Shown: in pieces, positions 25 to 32,046 of the stretch
Numbering within the stretch: position 1 is the first letter of the stretch
Layout of the letters: every line of letters starts with the position of its first letter
Assembly: GCA_903891315.1 (NCBI GenBank)
Contig: CAITEF010000118.1
Span: 1-35,689, forward strand
Source of the DNA: an uncultured Rhodospirillales bacterium
Lineage (GTDB): Bacteria; Pseudomonadota; Alphaproteobacteria; Acetobacterales; Acetobacteraceae
Direction of reading: 5' to 3'
DNA length: 35,689 nt
Notes under the pieces: model-generated
The model's input: the letters and a program-made list of their open reading frames with translations, nothing else
The model's database searches: none
What the model was told of the DNA's origin: nothing
Translations under genes and position numbers: made by a program

Positions 25-3000
25 TCACGCCGCCTTCGCCTCATGTGCGATGCGGTTGAGGTTCGACAGCACGTCCCGCGCCAGCTTCACCCGCTGGGTG
101 ATCGTCATCTCGCCCACAATGGCCAGCTTGTGGTCCGGACGCAGCTTCACCAGCCCGCCCTTCTTCCCCAGCCACGTGATCAGCCCCGCCGGGTTGCGGA
201 ACTTGTTGCCGCGGAAGGTGATCACCATCCCCTTCGGCCCAGCGTCGAGCTTCTCCACACCGGAAGACCGGCACAGCCGCTTCAACGCCACGACATGCAG
301 CAGATTGTCGACCTCCTCCGGCAATTTGCCGAAGCGATCCACCAATTCAGCGGCCATTGCCTCACTCTCTGCGTCGTTCTCCAACGCTCCAATCCGGCGA
401 TACAGGCCGAGGCGAACCGGAAGTTCGCGCACATAGGTCTCAGGGATCAGCACCGGCAGGCCGAGGCCGATATTCGGCGTCCAGTCACGCGCCTCGGTGC
501 GTTTCTTGCCCTTCTCGGCGCGCATCTCGGCCACCGCGTCTTCCAGCATCTGCTGATACAACTCGATGCCGACCTCACGGATATGCCCGCTCTGCTCATC
601 CCCCAACAGATTGCCCGCGCCACGAATGTCCAAATCATGCGACGCCAGCGTGAAGCCCGCGCCGAGATTGTCCAGCGTCTGCATCACGCCCAACCGCTTC
701 TCGGCCGCCACCGACAACGCATTGGTCGGCGGCCAGGTCAGATAGGCGTATCCGCGCTGCTTGCCACGTCCGACGCGACCGCGCAGCTGATAGAGCTGGC
801 CCAGCCCGAACATCTCGGCGCGGTGAATGATCAGCGTGTTCACGGCGGGCATGTCGAGCCCGGACTCCACGATATTGGTCGACAGCAGAATGTCGTATTT
901 GCCGTCGCCGAACTCCGTCATCACCCGTTCCAACTCGGTGGGCGAGAGACGACCATGCGCCTGGATGGTCTTTGCCTCTGGGACGATCTCCGACAGGCGT
1001 TTGGCCATCCGGTCGAGATCTTCCAGGCGCGGACAGACGCAGAAAATCTGCCCACCCCGGAACCGTTCGCGCTGAATGGCTTCCCGGATCACAACCGCGT
1101 CGAACGGCATGATAAAGGTGCGCACCGCCAAGCGATCCACTGGGGGCGTTGCAATAATGCTCATCTCGCGCACGCCGGTGAGTGCGAGTTGTAGCGTGCG
1201 CGGAATCGGCGTGGCGGTGAGCGTGAGCACATGCACATCCGCCTTCATCGATTTCAGCTTCTCTTTGTGGGCGACGCCGAAATGCTGCTCCTCGTCGACA
1301 ATCACCAAGCCGAGATTGTCGAATTTTACGCTGTCTGCGAGCAAGGCGTGGGTGCCGATGACAATGCTGATCTCGCCGGTTGCCAGATCCTCCTTCACCT
1401 TCAAAGCGTCCTTGGCGGTGACCATGCGCGAAAGCTGGCCGATCTTGATCGGCAGCCCCTCAAACCGCTTGGTGAAGCCCCGGAAATGCTGGCGGGCGAG
1501 CAAGGTTGTCGGCACCACGACTGCCACCTGCGAGCCGCTCATCGCCGCCACAAACGCCGCGCGCAACGCCACCTCTGTCTTGCCGAAACCGACATCGCCG
1601 CAAATCAGGCGATCCATCGGGCGACCGGATGCAAGATCCTCCAGCACATCGGCAATCGCGCGCGCCTGATCCTCGGTCTCGGCGAACGGGAAGCGGGCGC
1701 AGAACTCGTCCCACGCTCCTTCCGGCGGCGCGATCACCTCAGCCTCATGCAGACGACGCTCGGCGGCGACGCGGATGAGCCCTGCGGCCATGTCGCGAAT
1801 CCGCTGCTTCATCTTCGATTTGCGGTTTTGCCACGACGCGCCGCCAAGTTTGTCGAGCGCCACACCAGCAGTCTCGGAGCCGAAGCGGCTCAGCATCTCG
1901 ATATTTTCGACCGGCAGAAACAGCTTCTGCTCACCGTCATAGAGAATGCGCAGGCAGTCATGCGGCGCATTGCCGACATCGAGTGTCACCAGCCCGTCAT
2001 AGCGGCCGATGCCATGATCCTGATGAACGACAAGATCGCCCTCAGCGATCTCGGTGGCCTCGGCGATAAACTGATCGGCGCGCTTGCGGCGGCGCGGCGG
2101 GCGGGCGATGCGTTCGCCGAGCAGATCCTGCTCGGAGACCAGCGCCAGCTTCTCGGCCACGAAACCGCGTTCGATCCCCAGCGTCAGCAGCGCCAACGAG
2201 CCCAGCTTCACACGCTGGATTTCATCCCAATTGGCGCAAACCTCGACCGGGAAGCTGTGCTCGCTGAGCATATGCTGCAACCGCTCACGCGAGCCCCGCG
2301 ACCACGCCGCGATGATAATCCGCCGTCCCTCGCGAATCCAGCGATCCGCCTGCGCATGCAACTGGTCGAACAGATTGACGCCAACCGTGCCGGTCTTCTG
2401 GGCGAACAACGGCGCAGGCCGTCCGCCGCCATCAACGCCGACAGCGCCATCCGGCAATCCAAACGGCGAGAAGGTGAACACGCCGAAGCCCGAAAGCATC
2501 GCGTCCCAGCCTTCGCGGTCGAGATACAGCCGCTCGGGCGGCAGCGCGCGATACGGAATTTCGCCGTCACGCGGCACCGATTTGCGGGCGGCGTAGTGGT
2601 CGGCGATCATCTCCAGCCGGGAGGTCAGAACATCCTCGCCCTGATGATCGAGGCTGATCGCGGCATTGGGCAGATAATCGAGCAGCGTCTCCATGCTCTC
2701 ATGGAACAGCGGCACGTAATGCTCCATCCCCGGATGGCGATGGCCGTCGGAGATCGACATATAAAGCGGGTCGGTCGCCGCAGCGTTGCTGAACAGATCG
2801 CGCCAATTGGTGCGGAAGCGCGCAACACTGGCCTTGTCGAGAAACACTTCCGAGACCGGGCGCAGGCTGAAACGCTCAATCGCCGCCCCGCTGCGCTGGG
2901 TCGAGGGATCGAAACTGCGCAGCGACTCGATGGTGTCGCCGAACGTGTCGATGCGGATCGGCGCGTCGAGCCCTGCAGGAAAGATGTCGATAATGCCGCC

Positions 3001-3462
3001 ACGAATAGCGTATTCGCCCGGCTCCATCACTGTGCCCGACCGATTGTACCCACGGCCTTCAAGGATGCGGGCGAGATCGTCCGACTTCACCGTACCGTTG
3101 ACTGCCAGCGACATCGACGCACCGTGAAACACATGGCGCGGCGGGATGCGCTGCACCAGCGCGTTCACCGTGGTGAGAACGATTCGCTTGCCTTTCGACT
3201 GCTCCAGCAACGCCGCCAGGGTTGCGATGCGCTCGGAGATGATCGTCGGATTGGGCGAAACGCGGTCATAGGGCAGGCAATCCCAGGCCGGGAAGCGCAG
3301 GATTTCGGCATCCGGCGCGAAGAACGCCAGATGCTCGGCCATCGTGGCCATGCGGGTATCGTCGCGCGCGACATGCAGCAGCGGATAGGCATGTTCCTGC
3401 GCCCGGCGGGCGAGAAGCATCGCATCCCAGCCTTCTGGTGCGCCGTAGACGGTGGCTGTCAT
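25..3462 (-). CDS. mfd: transcription-repair coupling factor Mfd
   Basis: Cytoplasmic ATP-dependent translocase that removes RNA polymerase stalled at DNA lesions and recruits UvrA for nucleotide excision repair. The protein has 1145 residues, the normal Mfd length. The N-terminal third resembles the UvrB damage-recognition fold (PAWDCLPYDRVSPN near residues 58-71). The RNA-polymerase-interaction (CarD-like) region, with VHQDHGIGRYDG, lies in the middle. The helicase part has Walker A GDVGFGKTE near residue 624, the DEEQ box (VIVDEEQHFG) near 720, and the QLRGRVGRG motif. A TRCF C-terminal domain follows. It lies downstream of sdhE on the same strand, so the two may be cotranscribed, with a palindromic repeat (3472-3572) in the 130-bp leader. 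Sequence identity to the family is clear throughout. Confidence 0.98.
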   Translation of the reverse strand: MTATVYGAPEGWDAMLLARRAQEHAYPLLHVARDDTRMATMAEHLAFFAPDAEILRFPAWDCLPYDRVSPNPTIISERIATLAALLEQSKGKRIVLTTVNALVQRIPPRHVFHGASMSLAVNGTVKSDDLARILEGRGYNRSGTVMEPGEYAIRGGIIDIFPAGLDAPIRIDTFGDTIESLRSFDPSTQRSGAAIERFSLRPVSEVFLDKASVARFRTNWRDLFSNAAATDPLYMSISDGHRHPGMEHYVPLFHESMETLLDYLPNAAISLDHQGEDVLTSRLEMIADHYAARKSVPRDGEIPYRALPPERLYLDREGWDAMLSGFGVFTFSPFGLPDGAVGVDGGGRPAPLFAQKTGTVGVNLFDQLHAQADRWIREGRRIIIAAWSRGSRERLQHMLSEHSFPVEVCANWDEIQRVKLGSLALLTLGIERGFVAEKLALVSEQDLLGERIARPPRRRKRADQFIAEATEIAEGDLVVHQDHGIGRYDGLVTLDVGNAPHDCLRILYDGEQKLFLPVENIEMLSRFGSETAGVALDKLGGASWQNRKSKMKQRIRDMAAGLIRVAAERRLHEAEVIAPPEGAWDEFCARFPFAETEDQARAIADVLEDLASGRPMDRLICGDVGFGKTEVALRAAFVAAMSGSQVAVVVPTTLLARQHFRGFTKRFEGLPIKIGQLSRMVTAKDALKVKEDLATGEISIVIGTHALLADSVKFDNLGLVIVDEEQHFGVAHKEKLKSMKADVHVLTLTATPIPRTLQLALTGVREMSIIATPPVDRLAVRTFIMPFDAVVIREAIQRERFRGGQIFCVCPRLEDLDRMAKRLSEIVPEAKTIQAHGRLSPTELERVMTEFGDGKYDILLSTNIVESGLDMPAVNTLIIHRAEMFGLGQLYQLRGRVGRGKQRGYAYLTWPPTNALSVAAEKRLGVMQTLDNLGAGFTLASHDLDIRGAGNLLGDEQSGHIREVGIELYQQMLEDAVAEMRAEKGKKRTEARDWTPNIGLGLPVLIPETYVRELPVRLGLYRRIGALENDAESEAMAAELVDRFGKLPEEVDNLLHVVALKRLCRSSGVEKLDAGPKGMVITFRGNKFRNPAGLITWLGKKGGLVKLRPDHKLAIVGEMTITQRVKLARDVLSNLNRIAHEAKAA

Positions 3463-3471
3463 TTCATCACA

Positions 3472-3572
3472 CCGTCATTGCGAGGCCCGCTTGCGGGCCG
3501 TGGCAATCCATCGATGTCAAAGATCACATTCTTCGCCCTCGATGGATCGCGACGCTTCGCTCGCGATGACGG
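3472..3572. repeat. imperfect palindromic intergenic repeat, copy 1
   Basis: The left arm starts CCGTCATTGCGAG and runs to CAATCCATCGA. The right arm runs TCGATGGATCGCGACG to CGCGATGACGG. Reverse-complementing the right arm gives a close match to the left, so the RNA could fold into a long hairpin. The left arm carries an extra small hairpin (GGCCCGCTTGCGGGCC). A second member of the family is at 11472-11560, sharing the GACGCTTCGCTC core and the GATGACGG end. The repeat occupies most of the gap between sdhE and mfd and would be in the mfd leader if the two are cotranscribed. It resembles the small mobile or REP-like palindromes common in alphaproteobacterial intergenic DNA. Confidence 0.75.
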
Positions 3573-3592
3573 AAAATTGGCAGGAAGGAGAT

Positions 3593-3880
3593 TCATCTCC
3601 GGCCAGAACCCTGGTCCGCCGCCAATTTCATCGCCCGCAGCATCGGACTGTCGGCATGCGACGGAATCGGCAGCCGACCTGTCAGCCAATCGGCCAGATC
3701 GGCGTCCTGGAGTTCCATCACTTCCTCCAGCGCATCCATCTCCGATTCTGACATCGAATCGATTCGCGCGGCCACGAATCCGCCGATCAGCAGGTCGGTT
3801 TCATGGGTGCCGCGATGGTTGGCGCGGAAAAGCAGGCGGCGTCGCCGAATGTCGCTGGGCGAGAGCGGGTTTTCTGTCAT
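3593..3880 (-). CDS. sdhE: succinate dehydrogenase assembly factor SdhE (YgfY/DUF339 family)
   Basis: Small 95-residue cytoplasmic protein that promotes covalent FAD attachment to the SdhA flavoprotein subunit of succinate dehydrogenase. The family signature is present: an N-terminal Arg-rich segment (RRRRLLFRANHRG) with the invariant RGxxE motif at residues 23-27 (RGTHE), then an acidic helix and DADLADWLTGR. The start ATG (complement of 3878-3880) gives the usual family length. An open frame continues far beyond this start on the same strand, but it is antisense to recG and lacks family similarity. The sdhE start lies 3 bp from the ATG proposed for divergent recG. sdhE next to recG and mfd is a familiar alphaproteobacterial arrangement. 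Confidence 0.93.
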   Translation of the reverse strand: MTENPLSPSDIRRRRLLFRANHRGTHETDLLIGGFVAARIDSMSESEMDALEEVMELQDADLADWLTGRLPIPSHADSPMLRAMKLAADQGSGRR

Positions 3881-3883
3881 GAC

Positions 3884-5971
3884 ATGGCAAGCTATAGCGA
3901 GCGTCCCCAACTGAGTCAGCCCGTGGAACCCTACCATCTCGATCCGCTTTTCGCAGAGCTGACCGCGTTGCGCGGCGTGGGCGACGCACTTGCCAAATTG
4001 ATGGCCCGCGCCACCGGCGGCAATCGGGTGATCGATCTGGTGTTTCACCTGCCCGAATCCTATCTCGACCGCCGTGAACGCAGCACAATCAAATCCTCTG
4101 TGCCGGGCCAAGTGGTCACGCTGGAGGTCGATGTCATCCGCATCGAACGGCCGCAAACCTCCAAGCAGCCGACGAAGGTGATGGTGAGCGATGGCAGTGG
4201 GTTTGCCGATCTCGTCTTCTTCCGCTCCTTCCCCGAGGCGAAACTGCGCGTGGGCAGCCGCGTGCTGATCGCGGGCAAGATGGATGACCGCCGCCAGATC
4301 GCCCATCCCGACCATATCGCGCCCGCCGAGCACCCAGATCGTTTCCCCGCCGTCGAGCAGGTCTGGCCGCTGTCGGCGGGGCTGTTCGCCTGGCATCTCC
4401 GCCGACCGGTCGTCGAGGCGGTGTCTCGGGTGCCGGAGAACATCCCGGAATGGCACGATGCCCCCTTGATGCAGCGCGAGGATTGGCCGTCCTTCCTGGA
4501 AGCCCTGCGCGGCCTGCAACTCCCCACCACCCTCCCCGCCCCCGAATTCCGCCGCCGTCTCGCCTATGACGAGTTGCTCGCGGGCCAAGTTGCCATCGGC
4601 ATCATGAAACGCCGCAACCGCGAGCGGCCTGGGAGGTCCTTGGTGGGGGATGGGAAGCTGAGGGCAAAAGCGCTCCAGGCATTCGGCCACGAACTGACCG
4701 AGGCGCAACGTCACGCCCTCGCCGAAATCGACGCCGATCTGGCCGCCCCCAACCGGATGATGCGGCTGCTGCAAGGCGATGTCGGCTCCGGCAAGACAGT
4801 CGTTGCCGCGCTGGCGATGCTGCGCGCGGTCGAAGCCGGCGCACAGGCGGCGATTATGGCCCCCACCGAACTCCTCGCCCGCCAACACGCCCGCACGCTG
4901 GCCGCGATCTCGCCCGTGCCAACCGCGCTGCTCGCTGGAACCGTCACCGGCAAGGAACGCGCGCGGGTCCTGGAAGGTCTGGCGGACGGCTCGATCCCGA
5001 TTGCCATCGGCACCCATGCGCTGGTGCAGGAGGGTGTCGCCTTCCGCGATCTGGCGCTCGCGGTGATCGACGAGCAACACCGCTTCGGAGTCAATCAGCG
5101 CCTCATGCTCGGCCAAAAGGGCGAGCAGACCGATGTGCTGGTGATGACGGCCACGCCCATCCCGCGCACCATGCTGCTCACCCAATGGGGCGAGATGCAG
5201 ACCTCGCGCCTGTCCGGCAAACCCGCTGGGCGCCAACCGATTCGTACCACCACCCACGCGCTGTCCAGCATCGGCACAGTGCTGCAGGCGGTGGCCCGCG
5301 CAATCAACGCAGGAGCGCTGGTCTATTGGGTCTGCCCGCTGGTCAGCGAGAGCGAGACCTCCGATCTCGCCGCAGTTGAGGCCCGTTATGCCACGCTGTT
5401 CGAACGCTTCGGCGATATCGTCGGCCTCGCGCATGGGCGGCAGGACACCAATGTCCGCGAGGCGGCGATTGCGGATTTCGCTGCCGGAAAGACCAAGATC
5501 CTGGTCGCCACCACCGTGATCGAAGTCGGAGTCGATGTGCCCGCCGCGAGCGTGATGGTCATCGAACAGGCCGAACGCTTCGGCCTCGCCCAGCTTCACC
5601 AGCTCCGAGGTCGCGTCGGGCGCGGGTCGGCGCAAAGTTTCTGTCTGCTGCTGTTCGACGACAACCTCACCGAAACCGCCCGCAAACGCCTCGCTTTGTT
5701 GCGCGAGACCGAGGACGGGTTCCGCATCGCCGACGAGGATTTCCGTCTGCGCGGCGGCGGTGATCTGCTCGGCACGCGCCAATCTGGCCTGCCGGGCTGG
5801 AAGATCGCCGATCCGGAGACCGATGAGGGTCTGCTGCACATGGCCGGGCGCGATGCCGACGTGTTGCTCACAGGTGACCCAAGATTAACATCTCCGCGAG
5901 GCCGCGCGATCCGACTGCTGCTAAGGTTGTTCGACCGTATAGAGGCTTTCCGAACCTTGAACTCCGGCTGA
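3884..5971 (+). CDS. recG: ATP-dependent DNA helicase RecG
   Basis: Branch-migration helicase that remodels stalled replication forks and Holliday junctions. The N-terminal wedge/OB region (LTALRGVGDALAKL, then a QVVTLEVDV strand) is followed by two helicase lobes: Walker A GDVGSGKT near residue 300, VIDEQHRFG near 393, TATPIPRT, and QLRGRVGRG near 575. The product has 695 residues, normal for RecG. The start is uncertain. ATG 3884 leaves 3 bp between the recG and sdhE starts. GTG 3923 (VEPYHLDPLF) aligns better with where most RecG proteins begin and is a real alternative. Upstream in-frame codons from 3803 overlap sdhE and are unlikely to be translated. Confidence 0.96.
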   Translation: MASYSERPQLSQPVEPYHLDPLFAELTALRGVGDALAKLMARATGGNRVIDLVFHLPESYLDRRERSTIKSSVPGQVVTLEVDVIRIERPQTSKQPTKVMVSDGSGFADLVFFRSFPEAKLRVGSRVLIAGKMDDRRQIAHPDHIAPAEHPDRFPAVEQVWPLSAGLFAWHLRRPVVEAVSRVPENIPEWHDAPLMQREDWPSFLEALRGLQLPTTLPAPEFRRRLAYDELLAGQVAIGIMKRRNRERPGRSLVGDGKLRAKALQAFGHELTEAQRHALAEIDADLAAPNRMMRLLQGDVGSGKTVVAALAMLRAVEAGAQAAIMAPTELLARQHARTLAAISPVPTALLAGTVTGKERARVLEGLADGSIPIAIGTHALVQEGVAFRDLALAVIDEQHRFGVNQRLMLGQKGEQTDVLVMTATPIPRTMLLTQWGEMQTSRLSGKPAGRQPIRTTTHALSSIGTVLQAVARAINAGALVYWVCPLVSESETSDLAAVEARYATLFERFGDIVGLAHGRQDTNVREAAIADFAAGKTKILVATTVIEVGVDVPAASVMVIEQAERFGLAQLHQLRGRVGRGSAQSFCLLLFDDNLTETARKRLALLRETEDGFRIADEDFRLRGGGDLLGTRQSGLPGWKIADPETDEGLLHMAGRDADVLLTGDPRLTSPRGRAIRLLLRLFDRIEAFRTLNSG

Positions 5972-14048: not shown

Positions 14049-14131
14049 TGGTGCGAGAGGAGGGATTCGAACCCACATGACAAAGTCGGTCGATTTTGAG
14101 TCGACTGCGTCTACCGTTCCGCCACTCTCGC
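14049..14131 (-). tRNA. tRNA-Leu(CAA)
   Basis: On the minus strand the acceptor arms GCGAGAG and CTCTCGC pair, followed by discriminator A and an encoded CCA. The anticodon stem GTCGA/TCGAC encloses the loop CTCAAAA, giving anticodon CAA for UUG. The D arm begins TGGCGGAACGGTAGACGC, the leucine pattern, and the T arm contains GGTTCGAATCC. A variable arm of type II length is present. The 3' end faces the histidine kinase; the polysaccharide locus lies on the 5' side. Confidence 0.95.
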
Positions 14132-15670: not shown

Positions 15671-15765
15671 GTTTGTTTTTTAGTCAGATTGTGCACTGCG
15701 AAAATCAAAACCGGAAGGCTTGAGAAACTTCATCAATACAACCCACGGCTATTTTGGAGAAGTTG

Positions 15766-17256
15766 ATGCAGTCACTCAGCAAGTCGGACCGGCCAAGATT
15801 GTCTTTGGTGCTGCCGACCACTGGAAACCCGCGCAGTGTGCGCCGAGTGCTGACGTCGCTTCGCAACAACGCCCCACCGTCGCTGCTCGCTGGCGCAGAG
15901 TTGATCCTGTTCCTGAACATCAACCCTGATTTGCCGTTCGACGACAAGCAAATGGCCATTTTGGTTGGCGAAGTCGAACCGCTTTTTCTCGCAACGACGG
16001 TGATCCGCACCGACACCTATCACATCACCGCCGAAACATCCGCCCTTGCCGCAGTGCGTCATGCGACCGGTGAATATCTGTGGATTGTTGGCGACAAGCG
16101 GGTCTTTTTGCCTGAGGGTCTGGCGCTGTTGGATGAGTTCATCCGCGAGCCCACAGCGCCCTGTGCCTATTTCAATTCCATCTGGTTCGACCAATCCGGC
16201 AAAACCCGCGGCTTGGCCACCACCCACTTCTCGTCACCCACCGCTCGCGTGACGCACAAGCAATTCGTCATCAGCCAAGGCATCAACTACATCGCGACCG
16301 GCATGGGCGTGTGGATTTACCAACGTCACTTGCTGGACCTCGATGTCTGGCAGACCATTATCGAAACCTGCGGACCACATTTTTCCCACGTGACGGCATT
16401 GTCGCATGGGATGCGAGATCTGGACGTTCTCTGCCACGCCGCCTTTTTGGTTCAGATTCAAGAAAAAGCCTATCACGGCGGAGATTCTGACGAGTGGACG
16501 CGCTACGCGAAAATATCGAATACGTACCGTCATTACGCCTGGACTTTCGGTATCGTTCGCCAGTTTATGTTTCTGATAAATAGCGGCATTTATCGATTTT
16601 CGGACATCCGTCGTGGAATGTGTTCAGAAACCTTGGTGCTTCGCCGTCAGGTTGACGAAATCTATGTGAATGTTTTCTTGCAACTGCAGATGGGGCGAAC
16701 ATCGCCCGCCGAACGCATAAAGCCGGAAGAATTTCACGAAATCATGCAATTTCTACATCGCGCATGCCCTGAGCACGCAATTTTGAATCAAAATATTGAA
16801 GATTTTTATGCCGGACTATTAACCGATAGCTACACTATTTTCTGGAGAAAATTCAAAAATCTCCGCAATATCCATGGCGACGGTCTAGAGTCTCGACTTT
16901 TGCCTTTGGTTGTATCCCAAATTGGCGGGTCTTACGTTCGTCTGCACCCACGCGGCTATCTGATCTCAAACGTGACGGACCGTGACGCGTTTTTGGTCGC
17001 TTACAAATTGCTCAACCCACCCGAACATGGGCCAAATTGGCGAATCTTGCGCGAGGACGAGTTCTCCGCGCTCGCCACAGAGTTCACGCCGACCTCGTTC
17101 GGCGAGTTGTTCCCAGTGATGATCAGCGATGATCGCAAACCATCCGCACGTCATCGAATGGTGCTGTTCCTGTTCAAATTCAGGCCCGTTGCGTGGGTGT
17201 TGTCGCATATGTCGGAACGGCTGAAGCAACGACTGAAACGGATCGTCCTGCGCTAA
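15766..17256 (+). CDS. putative glycosyltransferase, GT-A-like with an atypical DXD position
   Basis: 497 residues. The N-terminal part reads like a family 2 glycosyltransferase: LSLVLPTTGNPRSVRRVLTSL at 12-32, and ALAAVRHATGEYLWIVGDKRVFLPEGL at 94-119. Where family members usually have GDDD, this protein has GDKR (Asp110, Lys111, Arg112), so metal binding may differ or activity may be lost. The C-terminal half is not recognised and its DNA (about 16500-16900) is AT-richer than its surroundings, which suggests recent acquisition. The chosen start is ATG 15766 with GGAGAAG at 15756-15762; a TTG at 15754 lies within that ribosome binding site. Confidence 0.7.
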   Translation: MQSLSKSDRPRLSLVLPTTGNPRSVRRVLTSLRNNAPPSLLAGAELILFLNINPDLPFDDKQMAILVGEVEPLFLATTVIRTDTYHITAETSALAAVRHATGEYLWIVGDKRVFLPEGLALLDEFIREPTAPCAYFNSIWFDQSGKTRGLATTHFSSPTARVTHKQFVISQGINYIATGMGVWIYQRHLLDLDVWQTIIETCGPHFSHVTALSHGMRDLDVLCHAAFLVQIQEKAYHGGDSDEWTRYAKISNTYRHYAWTFGIVRQFMFLINSGIYRFSDIRRGMCSETLVLRRQVDEIYVNVFLQLQMGRTSPAERIKPEEFHEIMQFLHRACPEHAILNQNIEDFYAGLLTDSYTIFWRKFKNLRNIHGDGLESRLLPLVVSQIGGSYVRLHPRGYLISNVTDRDAFLVAYKLLNPPEHGPNWRILREDEFSALATEFTPTSFGELFPVMISDDRKPSARHRMVLFLFKFRPVAWVLSHMSERLKQRLKRIVLR

Positions 17257-21782: not shown

Positions 21783-23167
21783 AGCGAATGGCGACGAAAA
21801 GTTACATGGGCAATATCTTCCTCGCCCCAGACCGCCCGATCCTTGAGGCAATCAGCATCATCGAAGGCCATCGCACCCAGATGGCCTTTGTGGTCGATCA
21901 GAATGAGGTGTTGGTTGGCGTGCTGACCAATGGCGATGTGCGTCGGTTTTTGCTCAAGAACGGCAATGTGCAGGACCCGGTTCATGTTTGCATGAACACC
22001 GGCTTTCGTTCTGTGCTCAGCACCGACGGTGATTCGCGCGAGAAACTGCTGAAACTCTTCGATCTGGGCTACAGCGCTGTCCCGGTGTTGTCTGGCGACG
22101 GACGCGTGGTTGACATCGTCACCCCCGGTTTCCTGGCACCGCCGATTCAGGCCGATGTGCTCGCCCGTTCCCGCGCGCCAGCGCGCATCAGCTTCGCCGG
22201 TGGTGGGTCGGATCTGACGTATTACTTCATCAACAACAAGGGCTCGGTGCTCAACACATCGATTGCGATGTATGCGCACGCCACGTTGATCCCGCATGAG
22301 CGTCCGGAAATCCGCATTTTCGCCCAGGATACCGGCGAAGAGGACCATTTCGAGTCGTTTCGTGCGTTGGTCGATGCGCCTGAAAAGAAGCTGTTGCCGT
22401 CAGTCGTGGCGGTGATCCAGCCCAAATTCGGGTTCGATCTCTACGTCCATTCCGATTTCCCAGTCGGCTCTGGCCTCGGTGGATCATCCGCTGTGGCGAT
22501 CAGCGTTGTCTCGGCCTTCAACGAATTGCGGATGGATCGCTGGTCCAATTACCAAGTGGTGGAACTCGCCTTCCACGCCGAGCGCCTGCATTTCGGCATT
22601 GCTGGCGGCTGGCAGGATCAATACGCCTCAGCGTTTGGTGGGTTCAACCTGATCGAATTCGGCGATCAGCAGAATTTGGTACACCCGCTTCGGCTCGATG
22701 CTTCCATCACCAATGAACTCGAAGAATGCCTGATCCTCTGCGACACCGGCAGCGGCCACAATTCTGGCAAGCTGCACGAGAAGCAGCGTCAGGAGTTCGA
22801 GGAACAATCGGATCGTGCGGCGCAATTCAAGGCGAATGTCGATCTGTCGTTGCGGATGCACCGACACCTGATCCGCGGCGAGTTGAAGGAATTCGGGGAG
22901 TGCCTGCATGACGCTTGGTTGCTGAAGCAGCGCATGTCGTCGGCGATCAGCAACAGCCGGATTCAGCAAATCTACGACAGCGCCATCGAAGCGGGAGCAC
23001 TGGGTGGAAAGTTGCTCGGGGCCGGTGGCGGTGGCTTCTTCACCGTGTTCGCACCACCCCGAAGCCGCGCGCAAGTTGTCGCCAACCTCAAGAAATTCGA
23101 CTGCAAAATTTTCCCGCTGCGGTTTGAAAATGCCGGCGTCGTTTCGTGGAGGACAAAAGCACTGTGA
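21779..23167 (+). CDS. CBS-domain / GHMP sugar kinase fusion (HddA-like kinase domain)
   Basis: 462 residues. Residues about 10-125 form a CBS pair (VLVGVLTNGDVRRFLL, then STDGDSREKLLKLFDLGYSAVPVLSGDGRVV). Residues about 130-460 are a GHMP kinase: SRAPARISFAGGGSD at 131-145, the ATP loop PVGSGLGGSSA at 228-238, and GGKLLGAGGGGFF near 410-422. The kinase domain resembles heptose-7-phosphate kinase HddA and related sugar 1-kinases, but none of the GmhA/GmhB/HddC partners is present, so the substrate is open. CBS pairs bind adenine nucleotides and may regulate it. GTG 21779 overlaps the rfbG stop (GTGA), as the next gene does; ATG 21788 is the alternative start. Confidence 0.87.
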   Translation: MKRMATKSYMGNIFLAPDRPILEAISIIEGHRTQMAFVVDQNEVLVGVLTNGDVRRFLLKNGNVQDPVHVCMNTGFRSVLSTDGDSREKLLKLFDLGYSAVPVLSGDGRVVDIVTPGFLAPPIQADVLARSRAPARISFAGGGSDLTYYFINNKGSVLNTSIAMYAHATLIPHERPEIRIFAQDTGEEDHFESFRALVDAPEKKLLPSVVAVIQPKFGFDLYVHSDFPVGSGLGGSSAVAISVVSAFNELRMDRWSNYQVVELAFHAERLHFGIAGGWQDQYASAFGGFNLIEFGDQQNLVHPLRLDASITNELEECLILCDTGSGHNSGKLHEKQRQEFEEQSDRAAQFKANVDLSLRMHRHLIRGELKEFGECLHDAWLLKQRMSSAISNSRIQQIYDSAIEAGALGGKLLGAGGGGFFTVFAPPRSRAQVVANLKKFDCKIFPLRFENAGVVSWRTKAL

Positions 23168-25065
23168 CCGACACCAGCTTCCTGATCGGTGATTTTGTCG
23201 TTGGCGGTCCGCGGATATTTATCATCGCGGAGATCGGCAACAACCATAACGGCTCGGTGGCTTTGGCCAAGCAGCTGATCGACCTCTCGATCGAGGCTGG
23301 CGTCGATTGCGTGAAATTCCAGATCCGCAACCGGGCAGCACTTTATCGCACGGCACCGGGCGAGGAAGGCTCCGAGGATCTGGGCGTTGAATACGTCCAG
23401 GACTTGCTCAACAAGGTTGAACTGACGGTCGCCGAGCATCTTGAGGTGCGGCAATACTGTGCTGAGCGCGGCATTCTCTATATGTGCACGCCGTGGGATG
23501 AGGCCAGCGTCGATGTGCTGGCGGGATTCGATGTCGCGGCGGTAAAAATGGCCTCGGCTGATCTGTTCAACCCCTATCTGCTGCGCAAGGCCGCCACGCT
23601 GGGCAAGCCGATCATTCTGTCCACCGGCATGTCCTATGAATTCGAGATCGAACGCGCTGTGGCCACGGCCAACACTCTGGGCGTGCCGTTTGCGCTGCTT
23701 CACTGCAACAGCGCCTACCCGGCCCCGGAGACCGACATTCATCTGGGCTATATCCGCCGCCTCGCTGAGTTGCATCCCGTTGTCGGCTATTCCGGCCATG
23801 AGCGCGGCATTTCGATTTCCATCGGCGCGGTGGCGCTGGGTGCCACGATCATCGAGCGGCACATCTCGCTCGACCGCACGATGGAAGGCCCCGATCATCC
23901 GGCAAGCCTTGAGCCGGGCGAGTTCAAGGCGATGGTGACCGGCATTCGCCAACTCGAAGAGGCGCTGCCCTGGACAGGGCCGGGCCGCGTTCTTGGTCAG
24001 GGCGAGATGCTGAACCGAGAGAATCTGAGCAAGAGCGTCGTGGCTGCCCGCCCGATTTCGGTGGGTGAGGTGTTCGATGACACCAATCTGCGCGTCGCCA
24101 GCCCAGGCCAGGGCCTGCCGCCCTATCGGATGGCCGAACTGCTCGGAAAGACGGCCGTGCGCGCTCTCCGCCAAGGGGATTTTCTCTATCCGAGCGACTT
24201 GGAAGGCACCGTTAGCGGCAAGCGCAGCTATCATTTCCCAGTGCTATGGGGCGTGCCGGTCCGGTACCACGACTTTAAGAACTATGCCGAATGGATCGAG
24301 CCGGACCTGTTCGAGTTTCATCTTTCCTATCGCGACCTGCAGCTCACCCCGGCGAACTATCTGTTCGACGTGCCGTGCAGGCGTTTGGTGGTGCATGCGC
24401 CGGAATTGTTCGAGAACAGCGAATTGCTCGACATGGTCTCCGACGACCTCGCCTATCGCCAACGCTCGATCGACAACGTCAAACGGATTGTCGACGCCAC
24501 CGAGCAGATGCGCCGGTTTTTCCCGAAGGCTGATTCGGCGCTGATCGTTGCCAATATTGGCGGCTTCTCGATGGATGCGCCGTTCGACATCAGCCGACGC
24601 AAGGCGCTGTACGAGCGATTTGCCGAGAGCAGTGCGAAGATTGATTACGGCTCAACCGAGTTGATCCCGCAGAACATGGCCCCCTTCCCTTGGCATTTCG
24701 GCGGCCAGCGGCATCAGAACATCTTCATGATGCCAGACGAGCTGGCGGCCTACGCCACGATCCTCAAGATCCGGTACTGCCTCGACGTGTCGCATCTGCA
24801 GATGGCCTGCTGTCATTTCCAACTCGACTTCCAGGCCGCCCTCAGCGCCTTGCTGCCGCACGCCGCGCATCTGCACGTCGCCGACGCGTTGGGGGTGAAC
24901 GGCGAGGGCGTGGTGATGGGCACCGGCGACATCAAATGGCCGGAAACCTGGCGAAAAATCTGCGCCTATCCCAATGTCAGCTTCATTCCAGAGGTCTGGC
25001 AGGGGCACAAAGATCACGGTGCGGGCTTCTGGAGCGCGCTTGATTTCCTCACCAAACTGGATTGA
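23164..25065 (+). CDS. NeuB-like PEP-condensing synthase fused to SAF and TIM-barrel isomerase domains
   Basis: 633 residues. About 18-270 is a NeuB/SpsE TIM barrel: AEIGNNHNGS at 22-31, KMASADLFNPYLL, STGMSYE, HCNSAYPAPETDIHLGYI, VGYSGHERG and GPDHPASLEPGEF. About 280-345 is a SAF/antifreeze-like domain (NLSKSVVAARPISVGEVF, LRQGDFLYPSDL). About 350-630 looks like a xylose-isomerase/AP-endonuclease TIM barrel (FEFHLSYRDL, LVVHAPELFEN, YCLDVSHLQM, HLHVADALGVNGEG, FIPEVWQGH). NeuB enzymes join PEP to a sugar to make nonulosonic acids; no NeuC or NeuA is near. GTG 23164 overlaps the kinase stop (GTGA), with GGAGG at 23148-23152. A GTG at 23146 is less likely. Confidence 0.87.
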   Translation: MTDTSFLIGDFVVGGPRIFIIAEIGNNHNGSVALAKQLIDLSIEAGVDCVKFQIRNRAALYRTAPGEEGSEDLGVEYVQDLLNKVELTVAEHLEVRQYCAERGILYMCTPWDEASVDVLAGFDVAAVKMASADLFNPYLLRKAATLGKPIILSTGMSYEFEIERAVATANTLGVPFALLHCNSAYPAPETDIHLGYIRRLAELHPVVGYSGHERGISISIGAVALGATIIERHISLDRTMEGPDHPASLEPGEFKAMVTGIRQLEEALPWTGPGRVLGQGEMLNRENLSKSVVAARPISVGEVFDDTNLRVASPGQGLPPYRMAELLGKTAVRALRQGDFLYPSDLEGTVSGKRSYHFPVLWGVPVRYHDFKNYAEWIEPDLFEFHLSYRDLQLTPANYLFDVPCRRLVVHAPELFENSELLDMVSDDLAYRQRSIDNVKRIVDATEQMRRFFPKADSALIVANIGGFSMDAPFDISRRKALYERFAESSAKIDYGSTELIPQNMAPFPWHFGGQRHQNIFMMPDELAAYATILKIRYCLDVSHLQMACCHFQLDFQAALSALLPHAAHLHVADALGVNGEGVVMGTGDIKWPETWRKICAYPNVSFIPEVWQGHKDHGAGFWSALDFLTKLD

Positions 25066-25076
25066 GCAATACCGTT

Positions 25077-26822
25077 ATGAACATCGCAGAATTCCTTCTT
25101 TCCATCGTCCGCAGCCTGGGCACCGATACGGCGTTCTCGCTGACCGGCGGCATGGCCATGCACATCAATCGCGCGGTCGGCGAGTCGGGCATGCAGGTTG
25201 TCTATTGCAACCATGAACAGGCCGCGGCTGCGGCTGCGGATGGTTACGCCAAGGCGCGGGAATTCAACACGCCGGGGCTCGCGGTCGTCACGTCCGGGCC
25301 GGGCGTGATGAACACGGTCAACTCGGTGGCGTCGGCCTATTACGATTCGGTGCCGATGTTCATCCTCGCCGGTCAGGTCAAGCAGGCCGACATCAACGTC
25401 TTTGGCGTGCGTAGCCGCGGTGCGCAGGAAACGCCGCATATCGACACGATGTCGCTGATCACCAAATCCGCCTTCCGCTATTTGCCCGAGATGCCGGATG
25501 CGGAATTGGCGGCGAAGATGGCACTGGCGATGTCTGGCCGCAAAGGCCCGGTTTTCATCGAGACACCGCTCGACGTGCAGCCGCAACAAGTGCCGGATGC
25601 CGAAGCGCGACTGGCCAAGATTGGTCAGTTGATCAAGCAGCACATCGCTGACGCAGCAATGTCGAGCGGCGAAGCGGCGGCGATGATCAGCGCTGAGTTG
25701 GCCAAAGCCACACGCCCCGTGGTGGTGGTCGGCAACGCGCTGCGCATCGCGGGCATCGCGCGCGACCGGATCAAGGCACTGGTAGAGGCCATCGGTGCCC
25801 CCACCCTGCTGACCTGGGCGAGCTTTGATCTGTTGGAGCACAGCCACCCGTTGAATTTTGGCTGCGCGGGCGGGCTTGCACCGACGCATTCCAACCGCAT
25901 CATCCAGAGCGCCGATCTCGTGGTGTTTCTCGGCACCCGCCTCGACCTGCTCACCACCGCCTTCAACCCGGACAATTACGGCAAGAACGCCAAGCGGATC
26001 GTGGTGGAACTGGATCAGGCCGAGATCGACAAAAATGCGGTGATGACCAACACGGTGTTCTTCCGTGAAAACGTGATCAACGTCGTGGGCCTGCTCGAAG
26101 CCAACCCGCCCAAGGTCACGCGCTCGGAGTGGCTGTCCTCGTGCCAGCAATTGCGCGCCGAAGACGAGCAGGAAGAGCTCAAAGCCTTCGACACGCCGCG
26201 TCTGACCACCTATCAGATTGCCCGCGTGCTCTCGTCCTCCCCGGAGACGCCGTATATCGTGCCGACCGCATCGGGTTTTGCCACCGAAGGTCTGGCGCGG
26301 TTTTTCAAGCCCCGCGAAGGGGCGACCTTCGCCTGGGCTGGGCATGTGCTGGGCTCGATGGGCCTGGGCTTGCCCTGCGCCATTGGCGCGGCCGCGGGGC
26401 TGAAGGCACCGGTGGTGTGCGTGGAAGGCGATGGCGGCATTCTGCTCAATGTGCAGGAATTGTTCACCCTGGCGGCCAATCCGCAATTGGTGGTCACATT
26501 GATCGTGATGAACAATGGCGGCTACCAGTCGATCATCAAATCCCAAACCCGCGTCTTTGGCCGCGAATTCGGCGCCTCGGCGCAATCCGGCCTGTTCAAC
26601 GTGCCGTTCAACCAATTGGCCGCCTTGGTCGGGTTGGACTACACCAAGTGTGACACTGTGCCGGAGTTCGAGGCGGCGATGGCAGTTCCGGTCACCAAGA
26701 GCCGGTTGATCGAGGTCATCGCGGAAGAAGACGGTTATCGTGGCCCCGGCGTGACCACCAAATTCGACGCAAACGGCAAGCCGTATTCGACCGACATTGC
26801 GGATGTGACGTGGCAGCGCTGA
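25077..26822 (+). CDS. ThDP-dependent enzyme of the acetolactate synthase family
   Basis: 581 residues with the three-domain ThDP architecture. The catalytic Glu47 is in NHEQAAAAAADGY, the central domain holds VVVVGNALRIAG, and the ThDP/Mg motif runs from GDGG near 451 to NNGGY near 479. Beside rfbF, rfbG and rfbH it recalls YerE, which attaches a two-carbon acetyl branch from pyruvate to C4 of CDP-4-keto-3,6-dideoxyglucose for yersiniose. An ordinary IlvB is less likely since no IlvN or ilvC adjoins. ATG 25077 is preferred. An in-frame TTG at 25062 would overlap the previous stop (TTGA), in the pattern of the neighbouring genes. Confidence 0.85.
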   Translation: MNIAEFLLSIVRSLGTDTAFSLTGGMAMHINRAVGESGMQVVYCNHEQAAAAAADGYAKAREFNTPGLAVVTSGPGVMNTVNSVASAYYDSVPMFILAGQVKQADINVFGVRSRGAQETPHIDTMSLITKSAFRYLPEMPDAELAAKMALAMSGRKGPVFIETPLDVQPQQVPDAEARLAKIGQLIKQHIADAAMSSGEAAAMISAELAKATRPVVVVGNALRIAGIARDRIKALVEAIGAPTLLTWASFDLLEHSHPLNFGCAGGLAPTHSNRIIQSADLVVFLGTRLDLLTTAFNPDNYGKNAKRIVVELDQAEIDKNAVMTNTVFFRENVINVVGLLEANPPKVTRSEWLSSCQQLRAEDEQEELKAFDTPRLTTYQIARVLSSSPETPYIVPTASGFATEGLARFFKPREGATFAWAGHVLGSMGLGLPCAIGAAAGLKAPVVCVEGDGGILLNVQELFTLAANPQLVVTLIVMNNGGYQSIIKSQTRVFGREFGASAQSGLFNVPFNQLAALVGLDYTKCDTVPEFEAAMAVPVTKSRLIEVIAEEDGYRGPGVTTKFDANGKPYSTDIADVTWQR

Positions 26823-26883: not shown

Positions 26884-29094
26884 TTGTCCGCTGCGATCTC
26901 ATCGAACGGCAATGCCTTGCGGATGCTGCCATCGCTGACGTCGGTGCGCGTCTTCGCCGCCCTGACGGTGGCGGTGCACCACACCCGCGCCGCGTGGGCG
27001 CATACCCAATTGATCGACATAGTCGGTCAGGTCGGCTTTCTCGGGGTGCCGGTCTTCTTCGTGCTGTCCGGCTTCGTGCTGATGTGGGGGTTCAACCCCC
27101 AAATGACCGGCCAGGAATTCATCCTGCGCCGCCTGATCCGCATCTATCCGCTGCATGTGCTGACATTGCTCGCATCACTGTCCGCTTTCGTCGTGTTGCA
27201 CTCACCGATTGCAGGCTATGTCGGGACCCCGTGGGGCACTGTCGCCAATTTTCTGCTGATCCATGACTGGATTCCAGGCCACCCGAATATCCGCCAAGCC
27301 TGGAATGGCGTTTCGTGGACGTTGTCGTGCGAGTTCTTTTTCTACCTGCTCGCCCCCTTCGTGTTTTGCCGCATGTTGCGGGCGAAAAATCCGGCAGCAC
27401 CGTTTATCGCGGCGGCGGCGGTGTGGGTGGCGTTGTTTGTGCTGGCCTGGATGGCCGCGCTGTGGGACTGGGATTGGATTTCGGATTTCCTCCTCTGCCA
27501 TCCCATCGCGCGCTTCGACGAATTCGCCTTGGGTGCCAGCGGAGCCTTGCTGCTGCGCCACCGCCGGGTCCCGCAATCCCGCGCTTTGGCCTTGGCAGTG
27601 TTGACCGTCCCATTGGCGCTGTATTGCCTCTCGTTCCCTGAATCGAGCGGTCCACGGTCTGGCCCGGTGATGGTTGAATTGATCGTCCCCGGTGTGTTCC
27701 TGCTGATCCTGGCGCTCGCAGCACGCGACAATGCCGGGAAGCCGACATGGCTGCATGCGAAATGGCTCGTGTATCTTGGTGAGGCCTCTTTCGCGCTCTA
27801 CATGACCCACGCATTGTTCCTCGGCCCGTTCACCATCCTGCGCAATCGCGTCCTGCCGATCTCCGCCACCTCCGAGTTCTGGGGCGAGGTGGCGACACTG
27901 GCTTATGTGCTATTGGCCTTGCTGATCTCCGCCCTGATGCACAGCCTGCTGGAGCAGCCAATCCGCGTTCGGTTGATGCGCAGGCTCAAGAACATGTCGC
28001 AACCCGCCATTGTTGGGGGGTTTGACGTGGCAGCGCTCATGTCTCGCATGCAACATAACCTGCCGCTTCGGGCGGCAACCACCACAGAGAGCCCAGCACC
28101 AATGCCAATTCTCAGCGAAAATGCGAGCCAATCAAAGGTGGTACACTGGGCGATCCTTGGATTTGTGAGGTTTTTTCTGGCAACGGTCGTTGTCCTTGGG
28201 CATTATCATCTATTTATCGAAAAAGATCCGATCCACTTATTTGGTGGCGGATATTTGAATCCACTTAGCGCGGTGTTTGGATTTTTCATCATCTCCGGCT
28301 ACAGCATTGCCGCCAGCTTGGACCGAAATGCGGTTCATTTTTACAAACGGCGTGTTTTCAGAATATTCCCGCTTTATTTGTTTTCGATTGTGTTCGGATT
28401 AATCGTTCAGAAACTGGCCGGGCAAGGACTCATTTGGCCAAGCGGCGACACATTTGGCTTGCAGCCAATCCATATCGTTGCGTCGCTGCTGATGTTGCAA
28501 AATATATTGTCTGGACCGATTCCCATTCTTGGAGTGACTTGGTCGCTGAGCGCCGAATGGTGGCTCTATATGGTGGCACCCATTCTGCGCAAACAATCCA
28601 ATATCGTGCTTGGCGTATTGGCTTTCGCCTCCTACGCATTTTTCATCGCACAGCACCATTTCAATCCAATCCCGTTCGCGGTCGATGGATGGTCGGATTT
28701 GATGCACGGCAGAGTGCTGGCCGGCTTGTCCTGGATTTGGATCATCGGGTTCATCTACTACCGGATGCGCGGGACGGTGTATGGTTTCGTTATTCTCACG
28801 GCTCCGGCCATTTTGGCGATGACCATTGGCCGATCACCCGGCGTGCCCTATTTTGTTGCGGCCTTCGTTCTGATCTTGAGTGAAACGGTTGATCTGCCGA
28901 AATTCGCAGTTCGAATCGGAAACTTCCTGGGGGACGTGTCTTATCCGCTTTATCTTCTCCATATACCGACCATGACGGCGCTTTGGTATTTGGGCGTCGG
29001 AAATCGATTTGTGATTTTGCTATCGAGCATCGCCATCTCTGTGGCGTCAATTTATCTTATCGAGATTCCGGCAAATAAACTCCGTGATCGATAG
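26884..29094 (+). CDS. tandem two-domain membrane acyltransferase (AT3/OafA-like, duplicated)
   Basis: 736 residues containing two complete acyltransferase-3 domains. The first (about 15-370) has HH at 32-33, LRRLIRIYPLH at 81-91 and SWTLSCEFFFYLLAP at 144-158. The second (about 417-735) has H440, YKRRVFRIFPLY at 487-498 and TWSLSAEWWLYMVAP at 552-566. Each has about ten hydrophobic helices. The family transfers acetyl or other acyl groups to cell-surface glycans across the inner membrane. The second half is clearly AT-richer (20 G/C of 60 bases at 28201-28260 by hand count, against 37 of 60 at 27421-27480). The start is TTG 26884 with AGAAGGA at 26867-26873; ATG 26923 is possible. ATG 28102 could start the second domain alone. 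Confidence 0.85.
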   Translation: MSAAISSNGNALRMLPSLTSVRVFAALTVAVHHTRAAWAHTQLIDIVGQVGFLGVPVFFVLSGFVLMWGFNPQMTGQEFILRRLIRIYPLHVLTLLASLSAFVVLHSPIAGYVGTPWGTVANFLLIHDWIPGHPNIRQAWNGVSWTLSCEFFFYLLAPFVFCRMLRAKNPAAPFIAAAAVWVALFVLAWMAALWDWDWISDFLLCHPIARFDEFALGASGALLLRHRRVPQSRALALAVLTVPLALYCLSFPESSGPRSGPVMVELIVPGVFLLILALAARDNAGKPTWLHAKWLVYLGEASFALYMTHALFLGPFTILRNRVLPISATSEFWGEVATLAYVLLALLISALMHSLLEQPIRVRLMRRLKNMSQPAIVGGFDVAALMSRMQHNLPLRAATTTESPAPMPILSENASQSKVVHWAILGFVRFFLATVVVLGHYHLFIEKDPIHLFGGGYLNPLSAVFGFFIISGYSIAASLDRNAVHFYKRRVFRIFPLYLFSIVFGLIVQKLAGQGLIWPSGDTFGLQPIHIVASLLMLQNILSGPIPILGVTWSLSAEWWLYMVAPILRKQSNIVLGVLAFASYAFFIAQHHFNPIPFAVDGWSDLMHGRVLAGLSWIWIIGFIYYRMRGTVYGFVILTAPAILAMTIGRSPGVPYFVAAFVLILSETVDLPKFAVRIGNFLGDVSYPLYLLHIPTMTALWYLGVGNRFVILLSSIAISVASIYLIEIPANKLRDR

Positions 29095-29156: not shown

Positions 29157-30179
29157 TTGGACGCACCCAGCCCGCTGCTGACCATCGCCATTCCGACATG
29201 GAACCGGGCGGCGTATTTGGCGCTCAACCTCGAACAATTGCACAGACTGGTGGCAGAGATTTCGCCAGGGCTGGTGGAGATCCTGATCTCCGACAACGCG
29301 AGCCCCGACGCGACGCGGGACGTCGTCGATGCAGCCATCGCTGGCGGCACGCCGATCCGCTATCTGTGCAATGCGGAGAATATCGGCTCCGACGCCAATA
29401 TCGCCCAATGCTTCAACGAAGCACGCGGCACCTACGTGCTGATTTTGGGCGATGACGATCTGCTGATCGACGGCTCATTGGCAATGCTGGTGGCCTTGCT
29501 GCAGCGCCAGAAATTCGGCGTCGTCACCCTGCGCCCCTACGGCTATGACCAGGATTTCCGCGCCGAGCATCCCGGCGGCGGCGGGCGGAACCGCGTGTTT
29601 GACAGCCCCGCTGCGTTCCTGGCCGCCATTGGGCCGCTGATGACACTGATCTCCGGCTGCGTCGTCAATAAGGGCCTGATGGGTGGTGTCGATGCGCGGC
29701 AATTCTGCGGCGGCAATTTGGTGCAGGTGCATCTGGTGCTGATCGCAGCACTTGCCGCGAAGCAAAATTGCTTCCTGGAGCGCTACCTCGTTGCCTGCAA
29801 GCGCAACAACTCGGGTGGCTATGATTTCTCGTCCGTCTTCGTCACCTCATTCGCCGCCGTGCTCGACGCCCACCGAAATGCGGAGCTGACCCCACAGGCG
29901 ATCATGCAAATCGAGCGCGGCTTCTTGATCGGCTACTACCCGTATTACCTGCTGCGCCAACGGCTGGCGCGGGTTGGGGACATGCAAGGTGCTGCCAAAC
30001 GATTTGAGGATCGATTCGGCGGGCGAATGCTGTTCGACCTCTGGGTCAAACCGATCATCCTGCTGCCCCGGCCTTTGGCTCTGGCCTGGGGCGCGATGGC
30101 GACCCTGATCGGGCGCTTGATCAGCGGGGATCTGCGGCGCGGGCTGATGTTTGCTGTGAACAAGTGGCGGGCGAAGTAG
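29157..30179 (+). CDS. family 2 glycosyltransferase
   Basis: 340 residues, GT-A fold, inverting sugar transfer at the cytoplasmic face. LLTIAIPTWNRAAYL is at 7-21, SDNASPD at 45-51, NAENIGSDANIAQCFNEARG at 72-91, and the metal-binding DXD within GDDD at 98-101. A basic, hydrophobic C-terminus (WVKPIILLPRPLALAWGAM, then GLMFAVNKWRAK) suggests membrane association. Translation must begin at TTG 29157: an in-frame TGA lies at 29142-29144 and no ATG precedes the first conserved strand. It is the last gene of the plus-strand locus, 24 bp from the convergent ABC exporter. Confidence 0.9.
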   Translation: MDAPSPLLTIAIPTWNRAAYLALNLEQLHRLVAEISPGLVEILISDNASPDATRDVVDAAIAGGTPIRYLCNAENIGSDANIAQCFNEARGTYVLILGDDDLLIDGSLAMLVALLQRQKFGVVTLRPYGYDQDFRAEHPGGGGRNRVFDSPAAFLAAIGPLMTLISGCVVNKGLMGGVDARQFCGGNLVQVHLVLIAALAAKQNCFLERYLVACKRNNSGGYDFSSVFVTSFAAVLDAHRNAELTPQAIMQIERGFLIGYYPYYLLRQRLARVGDMQGAAKRFEDRFGGRMLFDLWVKPIILLPRPLALAWGAMATLIGRLISGDLRRGLMFAVNKWRAK

Positions 30180-31970: not shown

Positions 31971-32046
31971 TGGCTCCCGAAGTAGGACTCGAACCTACGA
32001 CCTAGCGATTAACAGTCGCGTGCTCTACCAACTGAGCTATTCGGGA
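31971..32046 (-). tRNA. tRNA-Asn(GTT)
   Basis: On the minus strand the acceptor arm TCCCGAA pairs with TTCGGGA, followed by discriminator G and encoded CCA. The D arm TAGCTCAGTTGGTAGAGCA, the anticodon loop CTGTTAA with anticodon GTT, and the T arm GTAGGTTCGAGTCCTAC are all standard. It closes the polysaccharide locus on the right, mirroring tRNA-Leu on the left. Confidence 0.97.

Follow-up and report, generated by a model that had tools for sequence, protein, structure and literature searches.

Acyltransferases of the AT3 family are described, in the excerpts of four reports considered here (PMC9558356, PMC7448272, PMC9833829, PMC12423673), as AT3-only, AT3-SGNH and AT3-racemase proteins and as eukaryotic NRF fusions; these excerpts contain no AT3-AT3 form. 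The family signature consists of R-x10-H in TM1, FFxxSG in TM2, RxxR in TM3, a Gly in TM6 and SxxxY in TM9, and R-x10-H, RxxR and SxxxY are placed at or near the acyl-CoA site (excerpts of PMC7448272 and PMC12423673). For Oac, an excerpt of PMC9833829 gives ten helices with the N- and C-terminus both cytoplasmic by reported analysis, and the part of PMC9558356 considered raises the question of how an AT3-only protein can work when no SGNH domain is fused to it. Here, we describe an open frame that carries two AT3 domains (Table 1).

Table 1. Features of the tandem AT3 frame and its neighbours (coordinates within the window)
Feature	Coordinates	Strand	Remark
Upstream TPP-dependent enzyme gene	25062..26822	+	67% relative in Rhodopila MAG
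15-nt exact direct repeat, two copies	26806-26820 and 28023-28037	+	pair brackets half 1
AT3-linker-AT3 single open frame	26884..29094	+	736 codons
Half 1, complete AT3 domain	26923..27999	+	residues 14-372
Linker, about 45 residues	28000..28134	+	approximately residues 373-417; mostly predicted unstructured
G6 homopolymer	28015..28020	+	shortly past domain 1
ATG at the linker	28102..28104	+	near the Met site of three standalone half-2 relatives
Half 2, complete AT3 domain of a phage/prophage/plasmid clade	28102..29094	+	low GC3
Downstream glycosyltransferase family 2 gene	29157..30179	+	

The tandem frame and its genomic setting

The stretch of DNA analysed as a whole (35,689 nucleotides; hereafter, the window) is a single contig from a draft assembly of 4.58 Mb in 697 contigs. 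From a TTG at 26884 the frame reads open without interruption to its stop, and Pfam matches PF01757 (curated cut-off, 31 bits) twice, once at residues 17–350 in half 1 (profile positions 3–322 of 326; 97.3 bits for half 1 alone) and once at residues 21–320 of half 2 (profile positions 6–324 of 326; 68.8 bits), as a sequence-only reading of this locus had proposed in describing two complete AT3 domains in one frame. All 11 site residues checked are present in each half, including R-x10-H (R22/H33 in half 1 and R429/H440 in half 2), FFxxSG (F58–G63 and F467–G472), RxxR (R83/R86 and R490/R493), and SxxxY (S302/Y306 and S686/Y690); also common to both are a Gly (G217/G622), a His (H309/H693), and a Glu (E150/E558). 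G217 is invariant across the half-1 alignments and G622 in the half-2 alignment, and we infer that these two residues are the TM6 Gly of the family; both halves carry the AT3 residue signature from R-x10-H in TM1 to SxxxY in TM9. The motifs previously assigned to both halves are present as regards the His and RxxR, while SWxLSxE is replaced in half 2 by TWSLSAE. Identity between the halves is approximately 26% over 106 residues, which, along with their separation in trees (see below), led us to reject a recent tandem duplication of one gene. The 736-residue frame has no SGNH/GDSL match at E 0.001 and therefore lacks the C-terminal SGNH domain after an 11th helix that marks AT3-SGNH proteins; a sequence search of the PDB gave no match at E 0.1.

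Modelled alone with AlphaFold, half 1 reached a pLDDT of 82.6 and a pTM of 0.83, with the last long helix ending at residue 372; this model aligned with HGSNAT at Z 16.6 (296 aligned at rmsd 4.8, whereas the next row, an unrelated one, reached Z 5.2), and the predicted structure has the core 10-TM TmAT fold. Foldseek with the half 1 model gave no match at E 0.001, nor did a structure search with the full-length model, for which the best rows were HGSNAT from E 0.07. The full-length model (mean pLDDT 53.9, pTM 0.44) represents half 1 poorly, whereas half 1 is modelled well alone; residues 368–414 are below pLDDT 50, and from residue 411 onwards 21 of 33 ten-residue blocks are at pLDDT of at least 70; half 2, as part of this run, is modelled moderately. 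No hydrophobic helix or stretch was found in the linker.

The frame sits in a nonulosonate (NeuB-type) surface-polysaccharide cluster that includes genes for NAD epimerases, a DegT aminotransferase, a nucleotidyltransferase, a GHMP kinase, a NeuB-SAF-TIM-barrel enzyme, a TPP enzyme, a glycosyltransferase, and an ABC exporter. Relatives of the window genes indicate Acetobacteraceae, the family that includes Rhodopila. Eight of 20 window genes have a match in a 22-kb stretch of a Rhodopila MAG (G129), at 47–76% identity and in partly changed order, and neither AT3 half is matched in that stretch. The relative of the TPP gene in this MAG is followed by other genes and no AT3, and the window TPP gene had no match at E 1e-60 in seven sampled congeners. 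The first copy of the 15-nt repeat is at the end of the TPP gene, and the genome contains no more than these two exact copies; we do not rely on the repeat as an insertion scar, given two longer repeat pairs within 3 kb in the same window, and the end of the TPP gene appears natural (ADVTWQR in the window and GDVAWSR in the relative).

Several other features of the region were observed. One protein (window 23146–25065) combines NeuB, SAF, and a xylose-isomerase-like TIM barrel, and has a 76% identical copy in the Rhodopila MAG, where the cluster is rearranged. A 500-aa frame (15754–17256) of low GC (0.53) has no Pfam or PHROG match and is kept at 48% in a related cluster. A tRNA-Leu (14049–14131) and a tRNA-Asn (31971–32046) bracket the sugar cluster, which suggests possible island borders; no repeat of over 10 nt was found to be common to the two. 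Elsewhere in the same genome another AT3 gene (G000:C505:8165-9204) is split across two frames and is either a pseudogene or the product of an assembly frameshift.

Relatives, phylogeny and rarity

The nearest relatives of half 2 are standalone genes with 46–50% identity. The relative at 50% is located in a prophage of the Rhodopila MAG that carries primase, baseplate, and tail genes; another, at 47%, is found in Paraburkholderia elongata, among weakly phage-like neighbours, and three come from IMG/VR viral contigs (L152, 47%; L153, 46%; L154, 34%), where they are flanked by baseplate, tail, or lysis genes. With a relative at 33% on a Nostoc plasmid and one more copy from the Rhodopila MAG, these genes and half 2 form an eight-row clade (SH-aLRT 100, then 98 in an enlarged tree) of phage, prophage, and plasmid rows, showing at the level of sequence that half 2 is akin to phage AT3s. 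Half 2 itself is not carried on a phage or prophage, as no phage structural or integrase family was found by Pfam among 24 window frames; three window frames compared with PHROGs gave one weak GtrB-like match. Half 2 matches phrog_3333 (4.7e-29) and phrog_6705 (1.5e-9); as half 1 matches phrog_3333 more strongly (1.6e-45), this family alone cannot set the halves apart.

A GDSL/SGNH gene lies directly upstream of the AT3 in three of the five half-2 loci examined (L091, L152, and L153, the match in L153 being below the Pfam cut-off), while the gene upstream in L154 has no PHROG match and the G129 prophage has a regulator and an opposite-strand esterase/lipase in this position. These standalone SGNH/GDSL-type genes 5′ of an AT3 (L091 4976–7155, L152 3871–5975, and L153 237–3258) occur on two viral contigs and on a bacterial contig whose neighbouring genes are weakly phage-like; the adjoining pair may represent the AT3-SGNH enzyme in split form. 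None of the 24 window frames scanned gave an SGNH match.

Half 1 has a sole close relative among the matches listed, a standalone gene of the Rhodopila MAG with 60% identity, which stops 15 residues past a shared EQPIR, 258 bases from a contig end and outside the sugar cluster; each tree joins half 1 and this gene as sisters (SH-aLRT 100). In the tree with few viral rows, half 1 belongs to a 37-row set of Acetobacteraceae rows (SH-aLRT 96); when 67 viral AT3s were added, half 1 and its Rhodopila relative moved to a 66-row set of which 60 are viral (SH-aLRT 95), a sample tilted by the fact that viral rows were gathered mainly by the half-1 alignment. The nearest viral row to half 1 in this enlarged tree is far off (path 2.76). 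The half-1 alignment found 260 relatives in viral contigs, of which the best 80 are all at 34% identity or less; half 1 thus appears to have no close phage relative among the best 80 of 260, but many viral copies are found among its more distant kin. The matches listed for the seven sampled congeners contain no close copy of either half.

These trees place the halves in different parts of the AT3 family, and relatives carry them as separate standalone genes. The suggestion that a resident gene had been joined to an imported one therefore holds as regards separate histories and a phage-type, low-GC3 half 2; the part concerning a resident half 1 is not supported, given the lack of a close congener copy of either half, the lack of a congener match to the TPP gene at E 1e-60, and the 60 viral rows of 66 in its tree set. 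For the latter reason, a scheme of one host half and one phage half was dropped. Since the nearest relatives are 46–60% identical, a "recent" date for the joining, as also proposed, is beyond what can be dated.

A tandem AT3-AT3 frame is rare among the genomes and viral loci sampled. PF01757 searches at E 1e-8 in three genome sets yielded 137 matches in 30 genomes, 94 in 45, and 79 in 58; after removal of repeated genomes, there were 275 AT3 matches in 126 genomes, and the window alone held a two-domain frame. In the loci examined, which contain 175 distinct AT3 frames, the window's frame was likewise the only one with two AT3 domains, and no two-domain frame was found among the 89 AT3 frames of 83 viral loci. 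Adjoining but unfused AT3 pairs numbered four (in G296, G139, G110, and a viral contig), with one more in each of G049, G045, and G070; on the viral contig L229, two adjoining unfused AT3 frames lie at 2574–5236. A match over 80% of the query was seen in none of the 15 plasmid and 12 phage records that had a match, and the matches listed when each half was searched against 299 family genomes included no fused example. Two genome-contig scans, which used short peptide patterns and may omit the window's own genome, gave no relative in one case and three loci, none fused, in the other. Nine long AT3 frames (530–1153 aa) considered as further fusions each had one AT3 match by Pfam. We found no literature on a two-AT3 or fused two-AT3 gene architecture. 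Some proteins with two AT3 domains may have entries in public domain databases, and for this reason we do not claim a first case.

The junction and its competing explanations

The composition break that the sequence-only reading placed at the junction was confirmed; GC3 falls from 0.79 in 26884–28011 to 0.60 in the 30 linker codons of 28012–28101 and 0.57 in 28102–29091. Only two of 66 stop-to-stop frames sampled from the same genome (each at least 200 aa; mean 0.718, sd 0.073) have a GC3 of 0.571 or less. The codon-usage score is approximately -0.05 bits per codon in the linker, 0.33–0.42 in half 1, and 0.02–0.27 in half 2. We rejected a non-coding linker, as in-frame GC1, GC2, and GC3 of 28012–28101 (0.70, 0.57, and 0.60) are not clearly non-coding.

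We favour, with modest confidence, the explanation that two AT3 genes of separate history were joined in frame and now encode a single two-site protein. The two full PF01757 matches with every checked site residue in place, the HGSNAT-like model of half 1, the linker free of hydrophobic stretches and, in the full-length model, low-scoring beside the mostly well-scoring blocks from residue 411, the separate tree sets, the baseplate, tail, or lysis genes around half-2 relatives, the polysaccharide-cluster setting, and the cytoplasmic termini of Oac (PMC9833829, in excerpt) all argue for it. Against it stand the lack of a second fused example in plasmids, phages, and the matches listed for the 299 family genomes, the near-neutral codon usage of the linker (although half 2 also scores low), the kept start region of half 2, which would be expected if it were still a gene of its own, and the SGNH gene that is upstream in three of five half-2 relatives examined and has no match among the 24 window frames scanned. 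The near-neutral linker, the G6 run with the stops behind it, the split G000:C505 gene, and the kept ATG hold our confidence at this level, with the remainder falling mainly on two products and on a join by frameshift. It is unlikely that one message gives two products, with a separate half 2 started at ATG 28102 next to either the long fusion or half 1 by itself; this ATG is at the linker as had been noted. A Met is found 12 residues before a conserved Trp in L152, L091, and L153, and 15 before it in the window (Met 28102); in L152 the listed ORF has no start codon before this Met, and half 2 looks, from its sequence, like a whole gene behind a linker, all of which suits a second product. However, the open frame reaches further upstream of this Met in L091 and L153, and L092 and L154 are without the same Met. 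The putative ribosome-binding site of ATG 28102 is weak, at background level (anti-Shine-Dalgarno energy -2.9 vs. a background median of -2.4), and the Mets of the relatives (0.3, 1.5, and -4.3) are mostly no better, as is also true of several other window genes; the junction RNA (141 nt) shows no unusual degree of structure (z -0.8). A linker hairpin considered as a former terminator or regulatory element was no more than expected by chance.

Another explanation, which we regard as unlikely, is that two separate genes exist in the cell, or in sister cells, and that the G6 run differs here by one base in length, through assembly error or a true slippage mutation, and so joins them. The neighbouring frame meets a TGA at 28023 and a TAA at 28056 right past this run, so a single length change would separate two genes, and a half 1 ending at these stops would have about the length of its standalone relative; runs of at least six G or C number four in the whole 35.7-kb window, the same assembly contains the split AT3 mentioned above, and adjoining unfused AT3 pairs occur. 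Nevertheless, the given sequence is open, such runs are not rare genome-wide (22 in approximately 100 kb of the genome at large), and six bases is short for slippage as well as for short-read error. An accidental fusion with one non-functional half, i.e., a decaying cluster gene, would agree with the atypical composition of half 2 and with its lack of the SGNH neighbour present beside three relatives; the 736 codons without a stop and the complete set of checked site residues in each half make this very improbable. The single two-site protein keeps its standing after the enlarged tree, as it is unaffected by the origin of half 1.

Proposed function and comparison with known systems

As a single two-site protein, the frame would be translated into one membrane protein in which a flexible cytoplasmic linker of approximately 45 residues joins two 10-helix TmAT bundles; with AT3 termini reported to be cytoplasmic, a head-to-tail joint would require no additional helix. 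Acyl-CoA of the cytosol, probably acetyl-CoA, would serve as the donor for each bundle, and the acyl group would be transferred to an exported glycan; the donor, the acceptor, and the order of these steps are those we infer. Two modifications would result, or a single one placed at two sites, with a fixed stoichiometry, and acylation of two positions on the exported nonulosonate-containing glycan is the likely function. As a speculation that is itself improbable, a phage-type coat-modifying acetylase may have been captured by fusion in cis to an unrelated AT3, giving a 20-helix two-site AT3-AT3 enzyme that would place two acyl marks on the same exported glycan and in which the G6 run may act as a slow switch between fused and split forms. 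As a naturally occurring pair of unrelated AT3 domains in tandem, the frame would offer a tractable case for AT3 function, and it suggests a route by which phage-type coat-modifying genes may enter bacterial polysaccharide clusters. Each half is ordinary in its biology; the join is the unusual part.

Compared with AT3-only O-acetyltransferases (Oac of Shigella, WbaK, and Lag1, as given in the excerpt of PMC9558356), each half is a complete AT3-only domain sharing R-x10-H, FFxxSG, RxxR, and SxxxY, and the polysaccharide-cluster setting recalls WbaK as the NeuB-type sugar recalls Lag1 (same excerpt); unlike these enzymes, the window frame has two AT3 domains, from different parts of the tree. 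It resembles the AT3-SGNH proteins OafA, OafB, and OatA in being a fused AT3 protein that probably acts on surface glycans, but its second domain is an AT3 rather than an SGNH, it does not require an 11th helix, and its linker would lie in the cytoplasm. VanT, an AT3-racemase, similarly combines an AT3 with a second, C-terminal domain, which in VanT is a soluble racemase. Like the phage O-acetyltransferases of phrog_3333 and the O-antigen acetylase of phrog_6705, half 2 clusters with phage copies (46–47% identity); unlike phage acetylases, it is located in a sugar cluster where none of the scanned frames was recognised as a phage gene, and is fused to another AT3.
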